Origin: Thermosulfuriphilus ammonigenes
GTDB lineage: Bacteria > Desulfobacterota > Thermodesulfobacteria > Thermodesulfobacteriales > ST65
Assembly: GCF_011207455.1 (NCBI RefSeq)
Contig: NZ_CP048877.1
Location: 736,576 to 800,575, forward strand
Reading direction: 5' to 3'
DNA: 64,000 nucleotides
The stretch's first letter is position 1. Every line of letters starts with the position of its first letter. The position numbers and the translations under genes are program-made. The notes under the pieces were generated by a model. The model was not told the DNA's origin and did no database searches. It was given only the letters and a program-made list of their open reading frames with translations. Shown here piece by piece: positions 43,363-52,617 of this stretch.

Positions 43363-44226
43363 TCACCATTCAAAAAGCCAGTCCAGGGTAGATAGGATTT
43401 TGAGATCGTTCTTCTCTGTCCCCTCAGGAACCCGACTACGATAGAGATCTTCCAGACGCAGGGAGAACTGGAGGTTTTTGAGAAGAGGCAGCCCCAGGCG
43501 GACCTTGCCTTCAAACTGATAGTCCTCTGGCTGGCTAAATTTGGGTTGATAGGTGGCCTCAGCCTCAAGGTTTAGCTGGGCCAGTCGTTTAGCCCCCTTG
43601 AGCCCTAAAAGGGCTCTGGTGACCAGATAGGCCCCTTTTCGTCGGTAGTCCTCATAGTCAAAGCTGAGTCCAAACAGGAGTTGGAGATGGCTTTCATCAG
43701 GACCGTAAAGATAGTAGCTAAGGCCTGTTCCTCCCTGGAGTCTGAGGTCAAGATCGGCCTCCTTGTCCACCTCAAAGAGATCTTTGGTAAAGAAGGAGAG
43801 CCGAGGGGCCAAAGAATAATCATAAAAGAAATCTCCCCGGAGCCTATCCTTGTCTGTCGCCCCTTCAGAGAGGGCGTATTCATAGAAAACATCTGTCTCC
43901 AGACGCCCCCGGGGCCACTTCTTTTTCGCCGCCACCATGGCCCGATAGCTTTGATAATCTGTGTTCCCTGAATCATGCTCAAGGCCCACAGAAACTCTAA
44001 TCCTCCAGGGTTCTTTAGGTGAAGCGGCCGGGGGTAAAGACTTGGCCGGCAGGATATCCTCCTTGGGAATCCGGAGAGTTCCGTAGGGGGTGGCCAGGAT
44101 GACTACCCCCGATTCCTCTTTGAGGATTTCACCCGTCAGGCGATCTCCATTTTTGAGATGAAGCTCAACCCCTGCGGCAGGAGCCACCCCCAAAAACAAC
44201 AGGCCCACGATAAGAATCAGGATCAT
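43363..44226 (-). CDS. DUF481 outer-membrane beta-barrel protein
   Basis: 287 residues from ATG 44226, chosen for its GGAGG site and because it starts the signal peptide (ILILIVGLLFLGVAPAAG). After cleavage comes an LSm-like strand set (VELHLKNGDRLTGEILKEESG, key residues H-KNGDRLTG-I) typical of DUF481/YdiY proteins. A beta-barrel of alternating strands follows (about 75-287), ending LDWLFEW. The barrel segments (YDYSLAPRLSFFTKDLFEVD, LLFGLSFDYEDY) fit a salt-induced or alkaline-inducible outer-membrane type. Specific role unknown. Possibly transcribed into the DUF3786 gene, although that has its own promoter. Confidence 0.85.
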   Translation of the reverse strand: MILILIVGLLFLGVAPAAGVELHLKNGDRLTGEILKEESGVVILATPYGTLRIPKEDILPAKSLPPAASPKEPWRIRVSVGLEHDSGNTDYQSYRAMVAAKKKWPRGRLETDVFYEYALSEGATDKDRLRGDFFYDYSLAPRLSFFTKDLFEVDKEADLDLRLQGGTGLSYYLYGPDESHLQLLFGLSFDYEDYRRKGAYLVTRALLGLKGAKRLAQLNLEAEATYQPKFSQPEDYQFEGKVRLGLPLLKNLQFSLRLEDLYRSRVPEGTEKNDLKILSTLDWLFEW

Positions 44227-44315
44227 CTTTCCTCCGTAATCATTTGGCCACATTTGGCCTTTAGGATTATGCTTTCTAAAGAAGGCTACCAAGTTTTGCC
44301 AAGGAGAAAGAGGGA

Positions 44316-45808: not shown

Positions 45809-46174
45809 ATGCCCATATATGAGTTTTGCTGTCTGGAGTGCGGGGAAGTCTTTGAGACCTTGCAGCGCCTAGGGGATTCACCCCCTGTCTGTCCTCTCTG
45901 TCAATCAGGGCGGGTAGAAAAACTGATCTCCGCCCCGGGAGCCGTCATTGACCGGGGGGCTTCCGTCAGACAACGAGAAACAAGCATCCTGAGGAGGGCT
46001 GGAGAATACCTCCGGGACGGAAAAGTCGCTGAGGCCCGACGTTTTCTCAAGGAGGCCCAGGAACACGTGCGCACCGACTCCATAAAACGTCTTTCGGATC
46101 GCCTCCAGCAACAGCCTCGGGGAGGCTACCTGGTCTCAAAACCGGCAGCCGTGATCACCAAGAAGAAGTCTTAA
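45809..46174 (+). CDS. FmdB-family zinc-ribbon protein with C-terminal extension
   Basis: 121 residues. The N-terminal zinc ribbon MPIYEFCCLECGEVFETLQ...CPLCQSG (Cys at 8 and 11, then 28 and 31) is the FmdB 'putative regulatory protein' domain. A helical, basic C-terminus of about 75 residues (RREYLRDGKVAEARRFLKEA-type) is longer than in minimal members. Function is unproved; it was first noted near amidase/formamidase genes. Its last 20 bases overlap the convergent radical SAM gene. Confidence 0.85.
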   Translation: MPIYEFCCLECGEVFETLQRLGDSPPVCPLCQSGRVEKLISAPGAVIDRGASVRQRETSILRRAGEYLRDGKVAEARRFLKEAQEHVRTDSIKRLSDRLQQQPRGGYLVSKPAAVITKKKS

Positions 46175-48623
46175 CCACCCTTGAGGCCAGAATCTCCCTG
46201 GCCTCAAGCCCCAAAATTGCCGAAAGGGCCTCATCTATCCGCACCCCTCCCTGCTCTGGAGTGCGAAGGGTAATGGTGAGGCCCTGGGGAGAGAGAGCTT
46301 CAAGGGCAAGGACATAGTCCTTAAGATCAATCGTCTTTTTCTTACCTTTTCGCAGCCGGGAAAAAGGCCAGCTCTCTCGGGCCTTAAAGTTATTGACGAT
46401 CTCGGAGAGATCCTGAGGGGCCGGAAGCTCCACCACGAAAGTCATCTTTGCCTCATGGGGAGGCTCACGGCCTACCTGCCAGGGCTGGACAGCCAGGAGG
46501 CCGATGCCGGCGGGCATGGTAGCCGAAAGGCGCCGCTTTATCTCTTCCTCCGGCAAAGGGCGGACAAGTTCAACAACGAAATGTTCCCTTTCGCTGGCCA
46601 CTCCTACCGGTAAGGCCCGGGGAAAGGAGACTCTAGGCAGGGGATGGAAGCCCTGACTGAAGGAAAGGGGGAGGCCGGCCCGCCTGAGAGCCCGATGAAC
46701 GACCCGCATAAGCTCAAGCTGGCTCAAAAAACGGGCTGGACCATCCTTGCTGTAGGCCACCAGATAGGCGAAACGGCCCTCAGGCTGGGAGGGCGGAGGC
46801 GGTGGAGGAGGAAGCTTACAGTCCTTCTTAAGGCTCAAGGCCACCTTCTTTCCACAAACTCCGCACTTAAGACAGCGACTGAAGCGGCAGTCCGGACTAA
46901 ACTGGGCTTCAAGGGCCAGCCGGCGCTCCTGACGCAGAAACTCCTGGCTAACTCCCATATCCAGATGCTCCCAGGCAAGGGGGGCCTCAAGGGACCTGGC
47001 GGAAAGATAACCCTCAAGGTTAATTCCCACCCTTTGAGCAGCTTTTTGCCAAAGAGAAAGACGGAAGTGATCACTCCAGCCATCAAGGCGGGCTCCCAAA
47101 CGCCAGGCCTCTTCAATAAGGGAGGCCAGAGAGCGATCCCCGCGAGAGAAAACCCCTTCAAGGAGGCTCATCTCAGGCTGGTGCCACTTAACCCGAAAAC
47201 CCCGCCCCCGAAGGGCCTGCTTGAGGATCCCAAGCCTAAAGGTGGCTTCGTCTGGAAGAAGCTGGGCCTCCCACTGAAACGGGGTATGGGGTTTGGGGAC
47301 AAAAGTGGCCACACTCACCGTGACCTGCCCTCCCCGACCGGAGGGGGCCATCTTCCGAACCTCCCGGGCCAGACGGATTATCTCCTTGACGTCTTCCTCC
47401 GTTTCAGAGGGAAGCCCGACCATGAAATAAAGCTTGATGTGCCCCCACCCCAGACGGAAGGCCGCCTCAGCACAGGCCAGAAGATCTTCCTCCCGGATAT
47501 CCTTATTGATTACCTGACGCAGCCTCTGGCTTCCGGCCTCAGGGGCCAGGGTAAAACCAGTCTTACGGACCCGGCGGATCTCCTCCATGATGGCCAGAGT
47601 CAGGGTGCCTACCCGAAGAGAGGGCAAAGAGATAGCCACCCGTCGGGGGCAGTAAACGGCCATGAGGTATTCCACCAGAGGCTCAAGGCAACTGTAGTCT
47701 CCGGTGGAGAGAGAAAGGAGAGAGACTTCGTCCCAGCCAGTGGCCTCAAGCCCCTCCTGGATAAGCTCCAGCACCCGTTTGGGAGATCTTTCCCTCACCG
47801 GCCGATAGGTAACCCCGGCCTGACAGAAGCGGCAGCCCCGGGTGCACCCCCTGGAGACCTCAATGGCCAGACGATCGTGGGCTGTTTCGGCAAAGGGCAC
47901 CAGTGGTCGGTAGGGGTAGGGAACGGCATCCAGATCAGCCACAATGCGTCGTCTCACCTTGGCCTTAAGCCGAGACCTCATCCCCCTGAATCTTCCATCT
48001 TTATCATAGAGGGGCTGGAAGTGATCCGGCACATAGAGGCCTTCTATATCCGAGAGGGCCCGGAGAAGATCGGCTTTCTCCCCTCCCTCACGCTTCAAGC
48101 GGCCACAGACCTCGGCCACCTCCAGGATAGCTTCTTCAGCGTCCCCGATGATGATGGCGTCATAAAAGGGGGCGACCGGCTCTGGATTAACCGCCGCTGA
48201 TCCTCCGCCAAGGATGAGGGGGAAAGGCTTCGGCCTTTCCTGCGAACGAAAGGGAAGACCAGCCAAAGAAAGAATGGTGAGGATATTGCTGTAGCACAGT
48301 TCGTAGGGAAGACTTATACCCAGAACGTCAAAGTCCACCAGGGGGCGACGATGCTCCCAAGAAACCAGAGGACGACCCCGCTCAAGCAAGAGAGCTTCCA
48401 GGTCTCTGTCCGGACAATAGGCCCGATCAGCCAGCCAGTCTCGACGGCTGTTGAGAATAAGATAAAGAATTTGGCTTCCTAGATGGGACATCCCCAGTTC
48501 ATAAAGGTCGGGGAAAACCAGACAAAAACGCACCCTGGCCTCATCCCAGGGTTTATGCCAGGAGTTGACTTCAGTGCCCAGATAGCGGCTGGGCCGACGG
48601 ATGAGAGGCAAAAGATCGTCCAT
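46155..48623 (-). CDS. TIGR03960-type radical SAM protein fused to DUF2344 domain
   Basis: 822 residues. An N-terminal B12-binding-like region (about 25-190), then the radical SAM site with three cysteines in VSRGCTRGCRFCQAG (about 258-272), an extended TIM-barrel, and a Cys cluster near 590 (CRFSRCLKCGVCGKK). From about 620 a C-terminal DUF2344 domain follows (YSKDGPARFLSQLELMRVVHRAL, SFSQGFHPLPRVSFPRALP). The two parts occur as one chain or two adjacent genes in many bacteria, often near rne/rng or ribosomal genes; the reaction is unknown but tRNA or rRNA modification has been suspected. Here it is last in the Mla operon. A 518-codon open frame on the opposite strand is a shadow. Confidence 0.88.
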   Translation of the reverse strand: MDDLLPLIRRPSRYLGTEVNSWHKPWDEARVRFCLVFPDLYELGMSHLGSQILYLILNSRRDWLADRAYCPDRDLEALLLERGRPLVSWEHRRPLVDFDVLGISLPYELCYSNILTILSLAGLPFRSQERPKPFPLILGGGSAAVNPEPVAPFYDAIIIGDAEEAILEVAEVCGRLKREGGEKADLLRALSDIEGLYVPDHFQPLYDKDGRFRGMRSRLKAKVRRRIVADLDAVPYPYRPLVPFAETAHDRLAIEVSRGCTRGCRFCQAGVTYRPVRERSPKRVLELIQEGLEATGWDEVSLLSLSTGDYSCLEPLVEYLMAVYCPRRVAISLPSLRVGTLTLAIMEEIRRVRKTGFTLAPEAGSQRLRQVINKDIREEDLLACAEAAFRLGWGHIKLYFMVGLPSETEEDVKEIIRLAREVRKMAPSGRGGQVTVSVATFVPKPHTPFQWEAQLLPDEATFRLGILKQALRGRGFRVKWHQPEMSLLEGVFSRGDRSLASLIEEAWRLGARLDGWSDHFRLSLWQKAAQRVGINLEGYLSARSLEAPLAWEHLDMGVSQEFLRQERRLALEAQFSPDCRFSRCLKCGVCGKKVALSLKKDCKLPPPPPPPSQPEGRFAYLVAYSKDGPARFLSQLELMRVVHRALRRAGLPLSFSQGFHPLPRVSFPRALPVGVASEREHFVVELVRPLPEEEIKRRLSATMPAGIGLLAVQPWQVGREPPHEAKMTFVVELPAPQDLSEIVNNFKARESWPFSRLRKGKKKTIDLKDYVLALEALSPQGLTITLRTPEQGGVRIDEALSAILGLEAREILASRVVKTSSW

Positions 48624-48631
48624 GGGAAAAA

Positions 48632-50032
48632 CTAAAAAACCGGAAGATAAAAAAGTTTCAAGTGGAGACGGCCTCTGTCCTTTTTGATCTCAAAAAGGCC
48701 CGAGAGCAGAGAAAGCCCCCCGCCCTGAGGGCGTTTCTCCAGGCGAAGGAGAAAGGAGAGCTCAGAGAGGCTCCAGCCAGGACCGCTTTCGTAACGAATA
48801 ATTCCCCAAAGGATCTTGGTCCGGCTGTAGCCCCGAGGATCCTTAATCCACTCAAAGAGCCTGAAAAACGGACCCCAGTTGCGCTCAAACCCTTCGTCAT
48901 CAAAAGGGAACAGGGCAGGAAAATACAAATACTCCAGACCGCTGGCTTGACGCTCATAGCGGAAGAGAGGCCAGAGCCGATTGCTCGTCCGCACAAAGTG
49001 GCCGTAATCATCCCACTGGCGATGGAAGCGGGAGAAGAGCAAAAAGCGCCTGATCTCCTTACCCCCGGTCTCATCCTCTACGAAATAATAGGTGTAAAGG
49101 GGCCAGAGAAAGAAATAACTGCTGCTTTCTTCGGTCTCTGTCCGACCAATAAGGGGCCAGAGACGTCGGCTGCTTCTTTCCGGACCCTCAGCATACTGGA
49201 AAAAAGGCCAAGGAATATCCCATTGGCGGTAGCCGGTACTTAAGTCCTGATAGCGATTAAAAAAGGGCCACAGGAGAATGGTTGTCCTGGTGTTAGCCGT
49301 GCGCTCCCGAATATAAAAGGGGAAAAACATCTGCCGCTCACTGGGAACCTTCTCATAGAGGTCTGTCCTTTCAAAAAAGAAAAAGGGCCAGAGGAAAAAA
49401 CTCTTTTCGTATTCTCCCTCCCGGGCATAGTAGCCGTAAAGGGGCCAAAGACGACGTCCTTTCTCGGTGGGCCCCTCAGTCTTGCCAAAGAAGGGCCACA
49501 GCCAGGTAGTGGTGATGTTTCCCTCATCTACCGAACGGGTATAAAGGGGCCAGAGGATAAAGAGGATTTCATCTTTCCCCGCCCGGGAATACATCCGTCC
49601 ATAAAAGGGGAAGACCCCCCAGTAGCTACGCCCCTTGGCGTCTTGCCCCCAAAATATGGGAAAATAAGATCGATGCCGGGGTGGGTTCTCCTCACCCTCC
49701 AGATCTAGATCCGTAGCAAACAAGGGGATGAGAACGAAACGGTGACGATCGGGGCTTTTCCAGTACCTACCAAGAGGATAAAGGAACTGAAATTCCTTCC
49801 TCTGGGGAAGCCTCCAGAAGGAGGCCAGGGGCCTTAAGGCCCACCCCGAGGCTTCCCTGGTGCGAAAGGAATACCAAAAGGGTCCTAAAATCTCCGTCTC
49901 CTCGACCCCGGTTTCTGGATTCTTTTGATGGAAATAAAAGGGAGAGAGGTTAATCCTTTCCAGCCCCCCTGCCCAGAGGAAGCGAGGAAACAGGAATAAA
50001 AAGGCTAGGAGTCCTAGGAGAACACCTCGCAC
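48632..50032 (-). CDS. W-P-[L/F] repeat protein in the Mla operon (probable outer-envelope protein)
   Basis: 466 residues with a signal peptide (RGVLLGLLAFLFLFPRFLWA). The mature chain is a long series of units of about 25-35 residues whose cores read [FIL]-L-W-P-[LF]-[YF] followed by a charged turn: ILWPLYTRS, WLWPFFGKTE, LWPLYGYYARE, FLWPFFFFER, LLWPFFNRYQ, IPWPFFQYAE, LWPLIGRTE, FLWPLYTYY, LWPLFRYER (nine W-P motifs), plus degenerate copies such as FFPFYIRER. Aromatic-ended alternating strands suggest a beta-barrel or beta-solenoid in the outer membrane. I know similar uncharacterised proteins only from deltaproteobacteria. It starts two bases after mlaD, so a role in lipid traffic is inferred from context. 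Confidence 0.72.
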   Translation of the reverse strand: MRGVLLGLLAFLFLFPRFLWAGGLERINLSPFYFHQKNPETGVEETEILGPFWYSFRTREASGWALRPLASFWRLPQRKEFQFLYPLGRYWKSPDRHRFVLIPLFATDLDLEGEENPPRHRSYFPIFWGQDAKGRSYWGVFPFYGRMYSRAGKDEILFILWPLYTRSVDEGNITTTWLWPFFGKTEGPTEKGRRLWPLYGYYAREGEYEKSFFLWPFFFFERTDLYEKVPSERQMFFPFYIRERTANTRTTILLWPFFNRYQDLSTGYRQWDIPWPFFQYAEGPERSSRRLWPLIGRTETEESSSYFFLWPLYTYYFVEDETGGKEIRRFLLFSRFHRQWDDYGHFVRTSNRLWPLFRYERQASGLEYLYFPALFPFDDEGFERNWGPFFRLFEWIKDPRGYSRTKILWGIIRYESGPGWSLSELSFLLRLEKRPQGGGLSLLSGLFEIKKDRGRLHLKLFYLPVF

Positions 50033-50034
50033 TA

Positions 50035-51096
50035 CTATCTCACCGCCGTCCCCACCAGGGTACCGAGAATGGTCACGGGAATCTGTTCTTGGAGATTAGC
50101 GCTGGCCTTGTTTATATTGCGCATGGTCTTCTTGGCCTCATAGTAGAGGGAATCATCCGTGAGGAGCTTGCCCAAAGTCCCCTGGCCGGCCTTAAGGTTT
50201 TTGGCAATCTGGTTGAGGTTTTTAACTAGCTCATTGGCTTCGTTGTAAAGGGAATCATCGCTGACCAGTTTACCCAAGGTCCCCTGGCCGGATTCAATCT
50301 TGGCCGCCAGATCCTGAATGGTCTGGGCCGCCTCCTGAAGGCTGGAGAAGGTCTCCTTGGTCTGATTGTAGAGCTCCTCATCTGTTAGAAGCTTGCCCAA
50401 GGTCCCCTGGCCAGATTCAATCTTGGCCGCCACGTTGTCCAGCCGGGTCATCAATTTATTGGCCTTCTGGTAGAGCTCGTCGTCCACAATGAGCTTGCCT
50501 AAAGTCCCCTCCCCTTGGGTAATCTTTTCTCCCATAAGCTTAAAAGAGGCCGAGGCCTCTTTGAGGTTGAGCACCAGCTCCTTGAGGTTGTTCTTCCCCT
50601 CCTCACTACCCAAAAGCTCTCTGAGACCGGCCGTGATAGCCCGGATATCATCTATGGCTGGAGCCACCTGGGTAAGTATCTGATCTAAGTCCTTGGTAGA
50701 GGTGGTCTTGGCGATGAGATCACCGGGGGCCAGGACAGGGGCCTCAGAGCTACCAGGCATGATCTGAACATACTTATCCCCCAGGGCCCCCTTAGTCCGG
50801 ACCATGGCCGTAGCATCCCGATGAATCTTGACGCCAGAGTAGATGTTCATCAGCACCTCGGCCTTAGAGTCCTTGAGACGGATCTCCTTAACCCGGCCGA
50901 TTTCCACTCCAGCCATCTCCACCCTGGCTCCCTTAACCAAACCAGAGACGTCATCAAAGAGGGCCCGAAGCTCGTAGCCCTTTTTGGGGGAAATAGTCTC
51001 CTCGCCCAGTTTAAGGCTCAAATATCCCAGCAGTAAAAGGGCAATGAGAACGAAGATGCCCACTTTTATCTCGGCACCACAGCCCGAACCTCTCAT
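50035..51096 (-). CDS. mlaD: MlaD/MCE-domain lipid-binding protein
   Basis: 353 residues. One N-terminal transmembrane helix (EIKVGIFVLIALLLLGYLSL) is followed by the MCE domain (about 35-115, GYELRALFDDVSGLVKGARVEMAGVEIG, key residues F-DV-GL--G--V---G---G), which forms hexameric rings binding phospholipid. The C-terminal 200 residues are unusual: a helical region with four copies of a G-x-G-T-L-G-K-L-x-x-D-x-x-L-Y module spaced 45-50 residues. It overlaps mlaF by 4 bases and is followed by the W-P repeat gene after 2 bases. It should shuttle lipids between the membranes with MlaE/MlaF. Confidence 0.92.
   Translation of the reverse strand: MRGSGCGAEIKVGIFVLIALLLLGYLSLKLGEETISPKKGYELRALFDDVSGLVKGARVEMAGVEIGRVKEIRLKDSKAEVLMNIYSGVKIHRDATAMVRTKGALGDKYVQIMPGSSEAPVLAPGDLIAKTTSTKDLDQILTQVAPAIDDIRAITAGLRELLGSEEGKNNLKELVLNLKEASASFKLMGEKITQGEGTLGKLIVDDELYQKANKLMTRLDNVAAKIESGQGTLGKLLTDEELYNQTKETFSSLQEAAQTIQDLAAKIESGQGTLGKLVSDDSLYNEANELVKNLNQIAKNLKAGQGTLGKLLTDDSLYYEAKKTMRNINKASANLQEQIPVTILGTLVGTAVR
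50150..50520 (-). repeat. Four tandem GTLGKL coding repeats in mlaD
   Basis: Four diverged copies of a coding unit centred on the minus-strand sequence for G-Q-G-T-L-G-K-L, at roughly 50160-50200, 50255-50300, 50380-50425 and 50485-50520. The plus-strand string GTCCCCTGGCC is identical in three of them. Spacing is about 110-140 bases. Confidence 0.7.
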
Positions 51097-51839
51097 GATA
51101 TCCCTCCTTCTTCCTCGGCCACCCCCTCAAAGAAGCGTCTGACAAAGGGATGGGAGGAACTCTTGATACTTTCCGGATCCCCTTCTTCGATGATAACCCC
51201 CTGGTGAAGCATGGCAATCTTGTCGGCAATGGTAAGGGCGCTGGGGATATCGTGGCTGATAACCACACAGGTGAGCTGATGTCGTTGCTGGCTCTCCTTG
51301 ATAAGCCGGTTAATGGAGGCCGTCATGATGGGATCAAGCCCGGTAGTGGGTTCATCAAAGAGAATGATTTCCGGATCAAGGGCCAGGGCCCTGGCCAGAC
51401 CGGCTCGCTTCCTCATTCCGCCAGAGAGCTCTGAAGGAAGCTTATCCGCCGCCTCAAGAAGCCCCACCAGGGCCAGCTTTTCCTCTACTTTTTTCGCGAT
51501 CTCCGTCTCGGAGAGCCGGGTATGCTCCCTCAGGGGAAAGGCCACGTTCTCAGCCACGGTCATGGAGTCAAAGAGGGCGGCATCCTGGAAAAGCATACCG
51601 AAACGCTTCCGCACTCTGTAAAGTTCTTTGAGGGAAAGGCCGGTTATATCTAGGCCGTCTACCAAAATCTGGCCCGAATCCGGCCTTATAAGGCCAATGA
51701 TATGTTTAAGAAGGACACTTTTCCCCTGCCCGCTCTGCCCCATGATGAAGGTAATCTTCCCCTTGGGGATCTCCAGATTAACCCCCCGTAAAACCTCTTG
51801 GGCCCCAAAGGACTTATGGAGATCAATGATCTTAATCAT
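51093..51839 (-). CDS. mlaF: ABC transporter ATPase MlaF
   Basis: 248 residues, cytosolic ATPase of the MlaFEDB-type phospholipid transporter. Walker A GQSGQGKSVLL (about 34-44), Q-loop MLFQDAALFDSM, signature LSGGMRKRAGLARAL (about 137-151), Walker B EIILFDEPTTGLDP and H-switch CVVISHDI are all intact. The GMRKR form of the signature is characteristic of the MlaF/Ttg2A group. ATG is four bases after the mlaE stop and the end overlaps mlaD by 4 bases. Confidence 0.95.
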   Translation of the reverse strand: MIKIIDLHKSFGAQEVLRGVNLEIPKGKITFIMGQSGQGKSVLLKHIIGLIRPDSGQILVDGLDITGLSLKELYRVRKRFGMLFQDAALFDSMTVAENVAFPLREHTRLSETEIAKKVEEKLALVGLLEAADKLPSELSGGMRKRAGLARALALDPEIILFDEPTTGLDPIMTASINRLIKESQQRHQLTCVVISHDIPSALTIADKIAMLHQGVIIEEGDPESIKSSSHPFVRRFFEGVAEEEGGIS

Positions 51840-51843
51840 CAGC

Positions 51844-52617
51844 CTAAAAAAGGAGAGAGGTGAGGATGTAGTCTAAAATAAGGATCCCCACCGAAGAGAT
51901 AACCACGGCCTCAGTGGTGGCCTTACCCACTCCCTCAGCCCCGCCCCGAGCGTGGTAGCCCTTGTAACAGCCGACCAGGGCCAGAAGCCCTCCGAAGACC
52001 ACCGCCTTGTAGAGGCCATTTGTAATATCACTAAGCTCCACCAGCTCAACCATCTTATTAATAAAGACCCCGGGGTCAATGTTAAGGAGAACAACGCCGA
52101 TCAAGTAACCGCCGGCAATTCCCACCACATTGGCCACCACCGTAAGCAGAGGAACCATTAAAAAACCGGCCCACAGCCTCGGAGTAACCAAGTAATGTAG
52201 GGGATTCACCGCCATGGATTCTAAGGCATCGATCTGCTCGGTAACCCTCATGGTGCCTATTTCTGCGGCAATGGCCGAACCGGCCCGGGCAGTAACCATA
52301 AGACTGGTGAGAACCGGCCCCAGCTCTCGAGTAAGAGAAAGAGCCACCGTGGCCCCGAGGAGGCTTTCGCCTCCAAATTTGCGAAAGCCATAGTAGCCCT
52401 GCAGGGCCAGAACCATACCCGAAAAAAGGGCCGTTAAAACCACCACCAGAATGGAGTTAACCCCAATAAACTCCATTTGTTTGAAGAAATTCTTGACCCT
52501 AAGCGGGGGAGAAAAGGTCAAAAGAAGGCCCTGGACCAACATCAGGGCCATTCCGCCCAGATGTTCAACCAGCTTGATACAGAAATCTCCCACTCGGGCA
52601 ACAATGTTCACTGGCAT
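51844..52617 (-). CDS. mlaE: ABC transporter permease MlaE
   Basis: 257-residue inner-membrane permease of the Mla lipid transporter, with an N-terminal interfacial helix and about five membrane helices. Family features: ALFSGMVLALQGYYGFRKFG, LVTARAGSAIAAEIGTMRVTEQIDAL (key residues E-G-M-V-EQIDAL, about 110-135), NPLHYLVTPRLWAGFLMVPLLT. First gene of a five-gene operon (mlaE, mlaF, mlaD, W-P repeat gene, radical SAM gene). An AAGGGGA ribosome site precedes ATG. No MlaA, MlaB or MlaC homologue is visible in the window. Confidence 0.95.
   Translation of the reverse strand: MPVNIVARVGDFCIKLVEHLGGMALMLVQGLLLTFSPPLRVKNFFKQMEFIGVNSILVVVLTALFSGMVLALQGYYGFRKFGGESLLGATVALSLTRELGPVLTSLMVTARAGSAIAAEIGTMRVTEQIDALESMAVNPLHYLVTPRLWAGFLMVPLLTVVANVVGIAGGYLIGVVLLNIDPGVFINKMVELVELSDITNGLYKAVVFGGLLALVGCYKGYHARGGAEGVGKATTEAVVISSVGILILDYILTSLLF

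Follow-up and report, generated by a model that had tools for sequence, protein, structure and literature searches.

What connects an MlaEFD lipid transporter with the outer membrane when the genome encodes neither MlaA nor MlaC and MlaD has no C-terminal barrel? The question is raised by a locus of Thermosulfuriphilus ammonigenes, located in a 64,000 nucleotide stretch of DNA (the window, in which all positions below are numbered), where mlaE, mlaF and mlaD are followed by a gene for a protein rich in W-P-[LF] repeats, hereafter called RP. In the minimal MlaEFD system of Veillonella parvula, MlaD carries its own C-terminal barrel (PMC10665443). A 2023 survey found that most long MlaD proteins are barrel-less and that none in the PVC and FCB groups has a barrel, and it left open how the barrel-less forms are connected with the outer membrane (PMC10665443). 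The original prediction, made from the sequence alone, was that RP could be an outer-membrane or bridging partner that takes the place of MlaA and MlaC. Our results support a partner role and do not exclude a bridging one; the outer-membrane location is inferred.

The operon and its genomic setting

The genes mlaE, mlaF, mlaD, RP and a radical SAM gene form a tight operon, all five on the minus strand, with intergenic gaps of +4 (E-F), -4 (F-D), +2 (D-RP) and +8 bases (RP-radical SAM), as had been predicted. The mlaE gene (51844..52617) encodes a lipid ABC permease of 257 aa (PF02405, E=3.6e-87; TIGR00056 above cut-off), and mlaF (51093..51839) an ABC ATPase of 248 aa (PF00005, E=2e-35) for which the best NCBIfam model is MlaF, with a score under that model's cut-off. 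The product of mlaD (50035..51096), an elongated barrel-less MCE protein of 353 aa, matches PF02470 above the cut-off (E=3.7e-21) and falls under those of TIGR04430 (118.8 vs 135 bits) and NF033619 (271.6 vs 315 bits). MlaE and MlaF are firmly assigned to their families, as is the MCE domain of MlaD.

The genome is complete, in a single contig of 2.29 Mb, and a genome-wide search found only one MCE protein in it, which carries one MCE domain. Neither MlaA nor MlaC gave any match in this complete genome (0 each), with positive search controls. Their predicted absence from the locus thus extends to the whole genome, and the possibility that copies encoded elsewhere serve this operon, which would have refuted the original prediction, was not borne out. 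A gene for MlaB, a STAS domain protein, is absent from the operon, to which this last observation is restricted. About 2 kb past the operon end, at 43363-44292, the window encodes a DUF481 (PF04338) protein that is likely an outer-membrane barrel.

Sequence and predicted structure of RP

RP (48632..50032, minus strand; 466 aa) starts with a GTG codon at 50032 and has the predicted signal peptide at about residues 1-21 (49970..50032, minus strand), with the hydrophobic sequence MRGVLLGLLAFLFLFPRFLWA and a helix at residues 2-13 in the AlphaFold2 model. The protein of the window is without any cysteine; of 111 homologues, 25 matched a loose lipobox pattern, and a small number of these matches look like chance occurrences inside signal peptides. 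No relative of RP, singly or as a family, was found in Pfam, NCBIfam or the PDB sequences, even though the family search in Pfam and NCBIfam was taken as far as E = 1, where a lone stray match (E = 0.015) concerned one family member. The WP[LF] motif occurs nine times, eight times as LWP[LF] and once as PWPF; composition shuffles lead one to expect 0.39 occurrences, and none of 5000 shuffles had more than 4. The nine modules of the original prediction are the clearest among 22 hairpin units.

Structure prediction of RP alone, which had been suggested as a check, used 67 natural sequences as AlphaFold2 input and gave a confident beta-ribbon with a mean pLDDT of 93.4 and a pTM of 0.80. The model consists of about 45 strands, mostly of 5-8 residues each, arranged in 22 beta-hairpins (48695..49945, minus strand) that are delimited by the model and by the alternation of its turns: 22 turns are mostly polar and poorly conserved (e.g. 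EG, PQ, GPT, EGE) and 22 mostly hydrophobic and conserved (e.g. LWPL, LWPF, FPF, LGPF). Since the two types alternate, the predicted ribbon would have one hydrophobic edge and one polar edge, and the model places all W-P-[LF] turns along the former. Stretched at 4.8 Å per strand, the ribbon would be about 21 nm long, a value that is arithmetic and not a measurement.

Foldseek found resemblance, locally only, to single-layer sheets (OspA, CPAP G-box, MORN) and to other beta-repeat proteins, as well as weak local matches to ApoB100 and LptD. The probabilities were 1.00 for 4bxr (TMt 0.45) and 0.98 for 3cka, but the global TM-scores were low, not exceeding 0.23 of query length for any listed match. 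OspA, the CPAP G-box and MORN repeats are free-standing antiparallel beta-meanders of short strands, which RP may be too; RP differs from them by having no Pfam match, by its W-P-[LF] turns on one edge and by these low global scores. A global fold relative in the PDB or among viral models was therefore rejected, the matches being local repeat similarity. RP would have an unusual repeat fold, so far only predicted by the model, without any solved sequence relative. We also rejected a transmembrane beta-barrel, on the prediction only, since strands of 5-8 residues are too short compared with the approximately 9-11 residues of membrane-spanning ones; given such short strands, a docking or monotopic partner fits better than an outer-membrane channel.

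Distribution and gene neighbourhood of RP

Homologues of RP were found in 47 of 60 near relatives of the source genome, in 94 of 297 genomes sampled from its phylum and, by profile, in 54 of the 59 genomes that make up a second group, the relatives of rumen genome L165; this group goes under the label Verrucomicrobia, which is that of a MAG (L163) found alongside L165. Among named species, RP occurs in Thermodesulfobacterium thermophilum, T. hveragerdense and T. hydrogeniphilum. RP is an old and conserved family whose range covers at least two groups of bacteria. It is undescribed: we did not find any description in the open-access literature searched, subscription papers and preprints being outside the search. 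Four second-group genomes (G326, G344, G360 and G369) contain long open frames with additional matches to RP, weak and only partial, and these frames might encode further WP-repeat proteins.

Had RP occurred mostly away from MCE genes, the original prediction would have been refuted; instead, 56 of the 80 named loci have it adjacent to a gene of the MlaD type. Among the remaining ones, 14 are of the Thermodesulfobacteriaceae type and several lie at contig ends. At least 47 of the 94 RP genomes have mlaE no more than 6 kb away from RP. The usual order in the phylum is E-F-D-RP, across many families, with RP placed first in some loci (L053, L217, L218, L225); in the second group RP adjoins mlaE, in the order RP-E-F-D, in 14 of 20 loci. 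The mlaD-RP pairing is kept where mlaE and mlaF are not adjacent (L142, L144, L161). Across 70 loci, the pairwise distances of RP correlate with those of MlaD at r = 0.92 and with those of MlaE at 0.80; for MlaD and MlaE the value is 0.87. Linkage and co-divergence both tie RP to MlaEFD, and most closely to MlaD.

The neighbourhoods themselves show some peculiarities. In L142 and L220, branched-chain amino-acid ABC genes (livH/M/G/F-like) stand directly ahead of mlaD-RP, replacing mlaE and mlaF. In L144, L161 and similar loci, where mlaE and mlaF are not adjacent, the pair is preceded by genes for a TPR-repeat lipoprotein and by housekeeping (fmt-, rpe-like) genes. In genomes of the Thermodesulfobacteriaceae type (loci L043, L044, L048, L055 and L062), a coaD-like gene consistently follows RP, in the place of mla neighbours. 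An apparent MlaD-RP fusion, an 808 aa open frame in L219 (G269:C14), was discarded as an artefact because the frame crosses assembly gaps (N runs).

Three MlaEFD designs and the MlaD tip

When we compared MlaEFD systems by reading 60 operons, we found three designs in the phylum and no mixing among them in the operons read. The first has a short MlaD of 146-192 aa and occurs in operons of MlaA-bearing genomes and some others. The second, found in most operons without MlaA and RP, has a long MlaD (463-628 aa) whose C-terminus resembles a barrel; that this is a barrel of the Veillonella type is inferred only from length and C-terminal sequence. In the third, RP is combined with a long, barrel-less MlaD, which in most cases measures 320-370 aa and has a conserved tip at its C-terminus.

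The AlphaFold2 model of the window MlaD contains a TM helix, the MCE strands, helices at residues 137-335 and a low-confidence tip, without any C-terminal barrel. Its helical part consists of repeated units, each about 43 residues long and bearing the motif GxGTLGKLxxDxxLYxEA; their copy number varies among species and might set the length of the tube. The tip, LQEQIPVTILGTLVGTAVR (50038..50094, minus strand), was delimited by alignment and by the pattern E-x-x-P-[IV]-[ST]-x-[LF]-G..., in which E337 and P340 are invariant in 50 aligned MlaD proteins. It was found in 85 of 91 RP-linked MlaD proteins and in none of 37 others. As the pattern was derived from RP-linked MlaD, the former proportion is not an independent test, but the latter is. 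The six misses among the RP-linked proteins correspond to two broken frames and four near variants. In all nine tested genomes where RP is unlinked (Thermodesulfobacteriaceae-like), a tip-bearing MlaD has been retained. The pairing of RP with this form of MlaD is conserved across the two groups. We had considered a loss of MCE genes from the unlinked-RP genomes, which is excluded, each of them having one MlaE and one tip-bearing MlaD.

RP versus MlaA and MlaC

RP and MlaA avoid each other across the phylum: 14 genomes have both, 80 RP only, 137 MlaA only and 66 neither (Fisher p = 5e-18). When the genomes are collapsed to 95 families, the corresponding numbers are 7, 18, 54 and 16 (p = 2e-5). 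Part of this avoidance is inherited from common ancestors, and shared ancestry inflates both statistics, the family-level test merely softening the problem; we therefore take them as support and not as proof. Nine of the 14 genomes with both proteins were read at the RP locus, and these have their own MlaEFD beside RP and MlaA on a different contig. MlaC was missing in 36 of 40 genomes that have RP and lack MlaA.

A putative outer-membrane partner of MlaD

We hypothesize that RP is the partner to which the MlaD tip docks on the outer-membrane side, and that it replaces MlaA and MlaC, a reading to which we assign a probability of about 0.66 in the absence of any experiment or complex prediction. 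It is likewise likely that RP is a dedicated part of the third MlaEFD design and represents a new component family. According to this hypothesis, lipid movement would be powered at the inner membrane by MlaE and MlaF, and six MlaD subunits, a number inferred by analogy with known MCE proteins, would form an MCE ring and a long helical tube ending in the conserved hydrophobic tip, without a barrel. RP would be exported, as a soluble protein or a lipoprotein, to the periplasmic face of the outer membrane, where its W-P-[LF] edge would dip into the inner leaflet. There it would receive or complete the MlaD tip so that lipids may pass between tube and membrane, thereby filling the job of MlaA plus MlaC, or that of the C-terminal barrel of the Veillonella MlaD. 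The location of RP, its contact with the tip, its binding to MlaD and the transport of lipids are all inferred.

Several observations speak against the docking reading. One whole family has RP beside coaD and not mlaD, the tip of MlaD is modelled with low confidence, and the RP and MlaA systems co-occur in 14 genomes. Moreover, some long MlaD proteins elsewhere may form a small hexameric barrel unaided (PMC10665443), and an MlaD that does so would need no partner.

A bolder reading, which we consider as likely to be wrong as right, is that RP founds a new class of envelope proteins, a long beta-ribbon whose W-P-[LF] edge faces the membrane and which provides barrel-less MlaD tubes with their outer-membrane terminus or with part of their lipid path. 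If true, this would account for the way in which some, at least, of the barrel-less long MlaD proteins reach the outer membrane. RP is in any case a concrete candidate for the missing outer-membrane link in at least two lineages, and since some of the species that carry it are in culture, for example Thermodesulfobacterium thermophilum (L103), the question can be directly tested.

Alternative explanations

The main rival to the docking reading is that RP is itself the lipid path, the ribbon curving into a hydrophobic groove or a closed collar that would carry acyl chains across part of the periplasm, in the manner of AsmA/TamB or LptA, alongside or around the MlaD tube. The single meander of about 45 short strands, the weak local matches to OspA, CPAP G-box, ApoB100 and LptD and the calculated length of an extended RP all agree with it. 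However, there is no global fold match, given the TM-scores reported above, the hydrophobic residues lie on an edge and not clearly on one face, and a long helical part is already present in MlaD, and we regard this rival as unlikely. Less likely still is that RP is an accessory envelope protein (an assembly factor, a regulator or a cell-wall/LPS tether) that is co-expressed with MlaEFD and stays outside the lipid path. The absence of linkage with mla genes in one family and the frequency of additional weak RP-like matches in second-group genomes could be taken in its favour, but the co-divergence of RP and MlaD exceeds that of MlaE and MlaD, RP accompanies the MlaD tip even if unlinked, and it avoids both MlaA and the barrel-bearing MlaD. 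Finally, RP could be a chance neighbour unrelated to Mla, in an operon that is a local accident, and the radical SAM gene of the same operon is such a case. A linkage conserved in two groups and in two gene orders all but excludes this for RP.

Comparison with known systems

Like the canonical Mla system of E. coli (MlaA-MlaC-MlaFEDB), the locus has an operon that encodes MlaE, MlaF and an MlaD with an MCE domain; it differs from that system in that MlaA and MlaC are lacking in the source genome, MlaD is elongated with a conserved tip and RP is added. Veillonella-type MlaEFD also lacks MlaA and MlaC and has an elongated MlaD proposed to span the periplasm (PMC10665443); here, by contrast, MlaD is barrel-less, and a separate protein with another predicted fold is proposed at the outer-membrane end. 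PqiC is the outer-membrane lipoprotein collar of PqiABC (PMC10897342), which RP would resemble if, as proposed, it receives the C-terminal end of an MCE tube on the outer-membrane side, and some RPs have a lipobox-like Cys. No sequence relation between RP and PqiC was found (no Pfam or NCBIfam match at E up to 1); RP is longer (466 vs about 187 aa) and is predicted to be a single long beta-meander, and its system has MlaE, MlaF and a single MCE domain in place of PqiA and PqiB. Another lineage-specific variant of MCE transport, likewise proposed to bridge both membranes, is Brucella Mpc, a chimeric Mla-Pqi bridge of the Hyphomicrobiales that is homologous to Mla and Pqi components (PMC12436622).

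The radical SAM gene

The original prediction listed the radical SAM gene inside the Mla operon, under the coordinates 48632-52617. The gene lies just outside these, at 46155..48623 (minus strand), and it is not part of the system. All 14 genomes tested have it, whether they encode RP or not, and at unrelated positions. It is beside RP in the source operon only, and at none of the other RP loci read. Its RP-independent presence and unrelated positions rule out the protein as a component of the system, and the gene is very probably a bystander sharing the operon. Its product, a fusion with NCBIfam matches to TIGR03960 and TIGR03936, is of unknown function, and a shorter paralogue often occurs in the same genomes.
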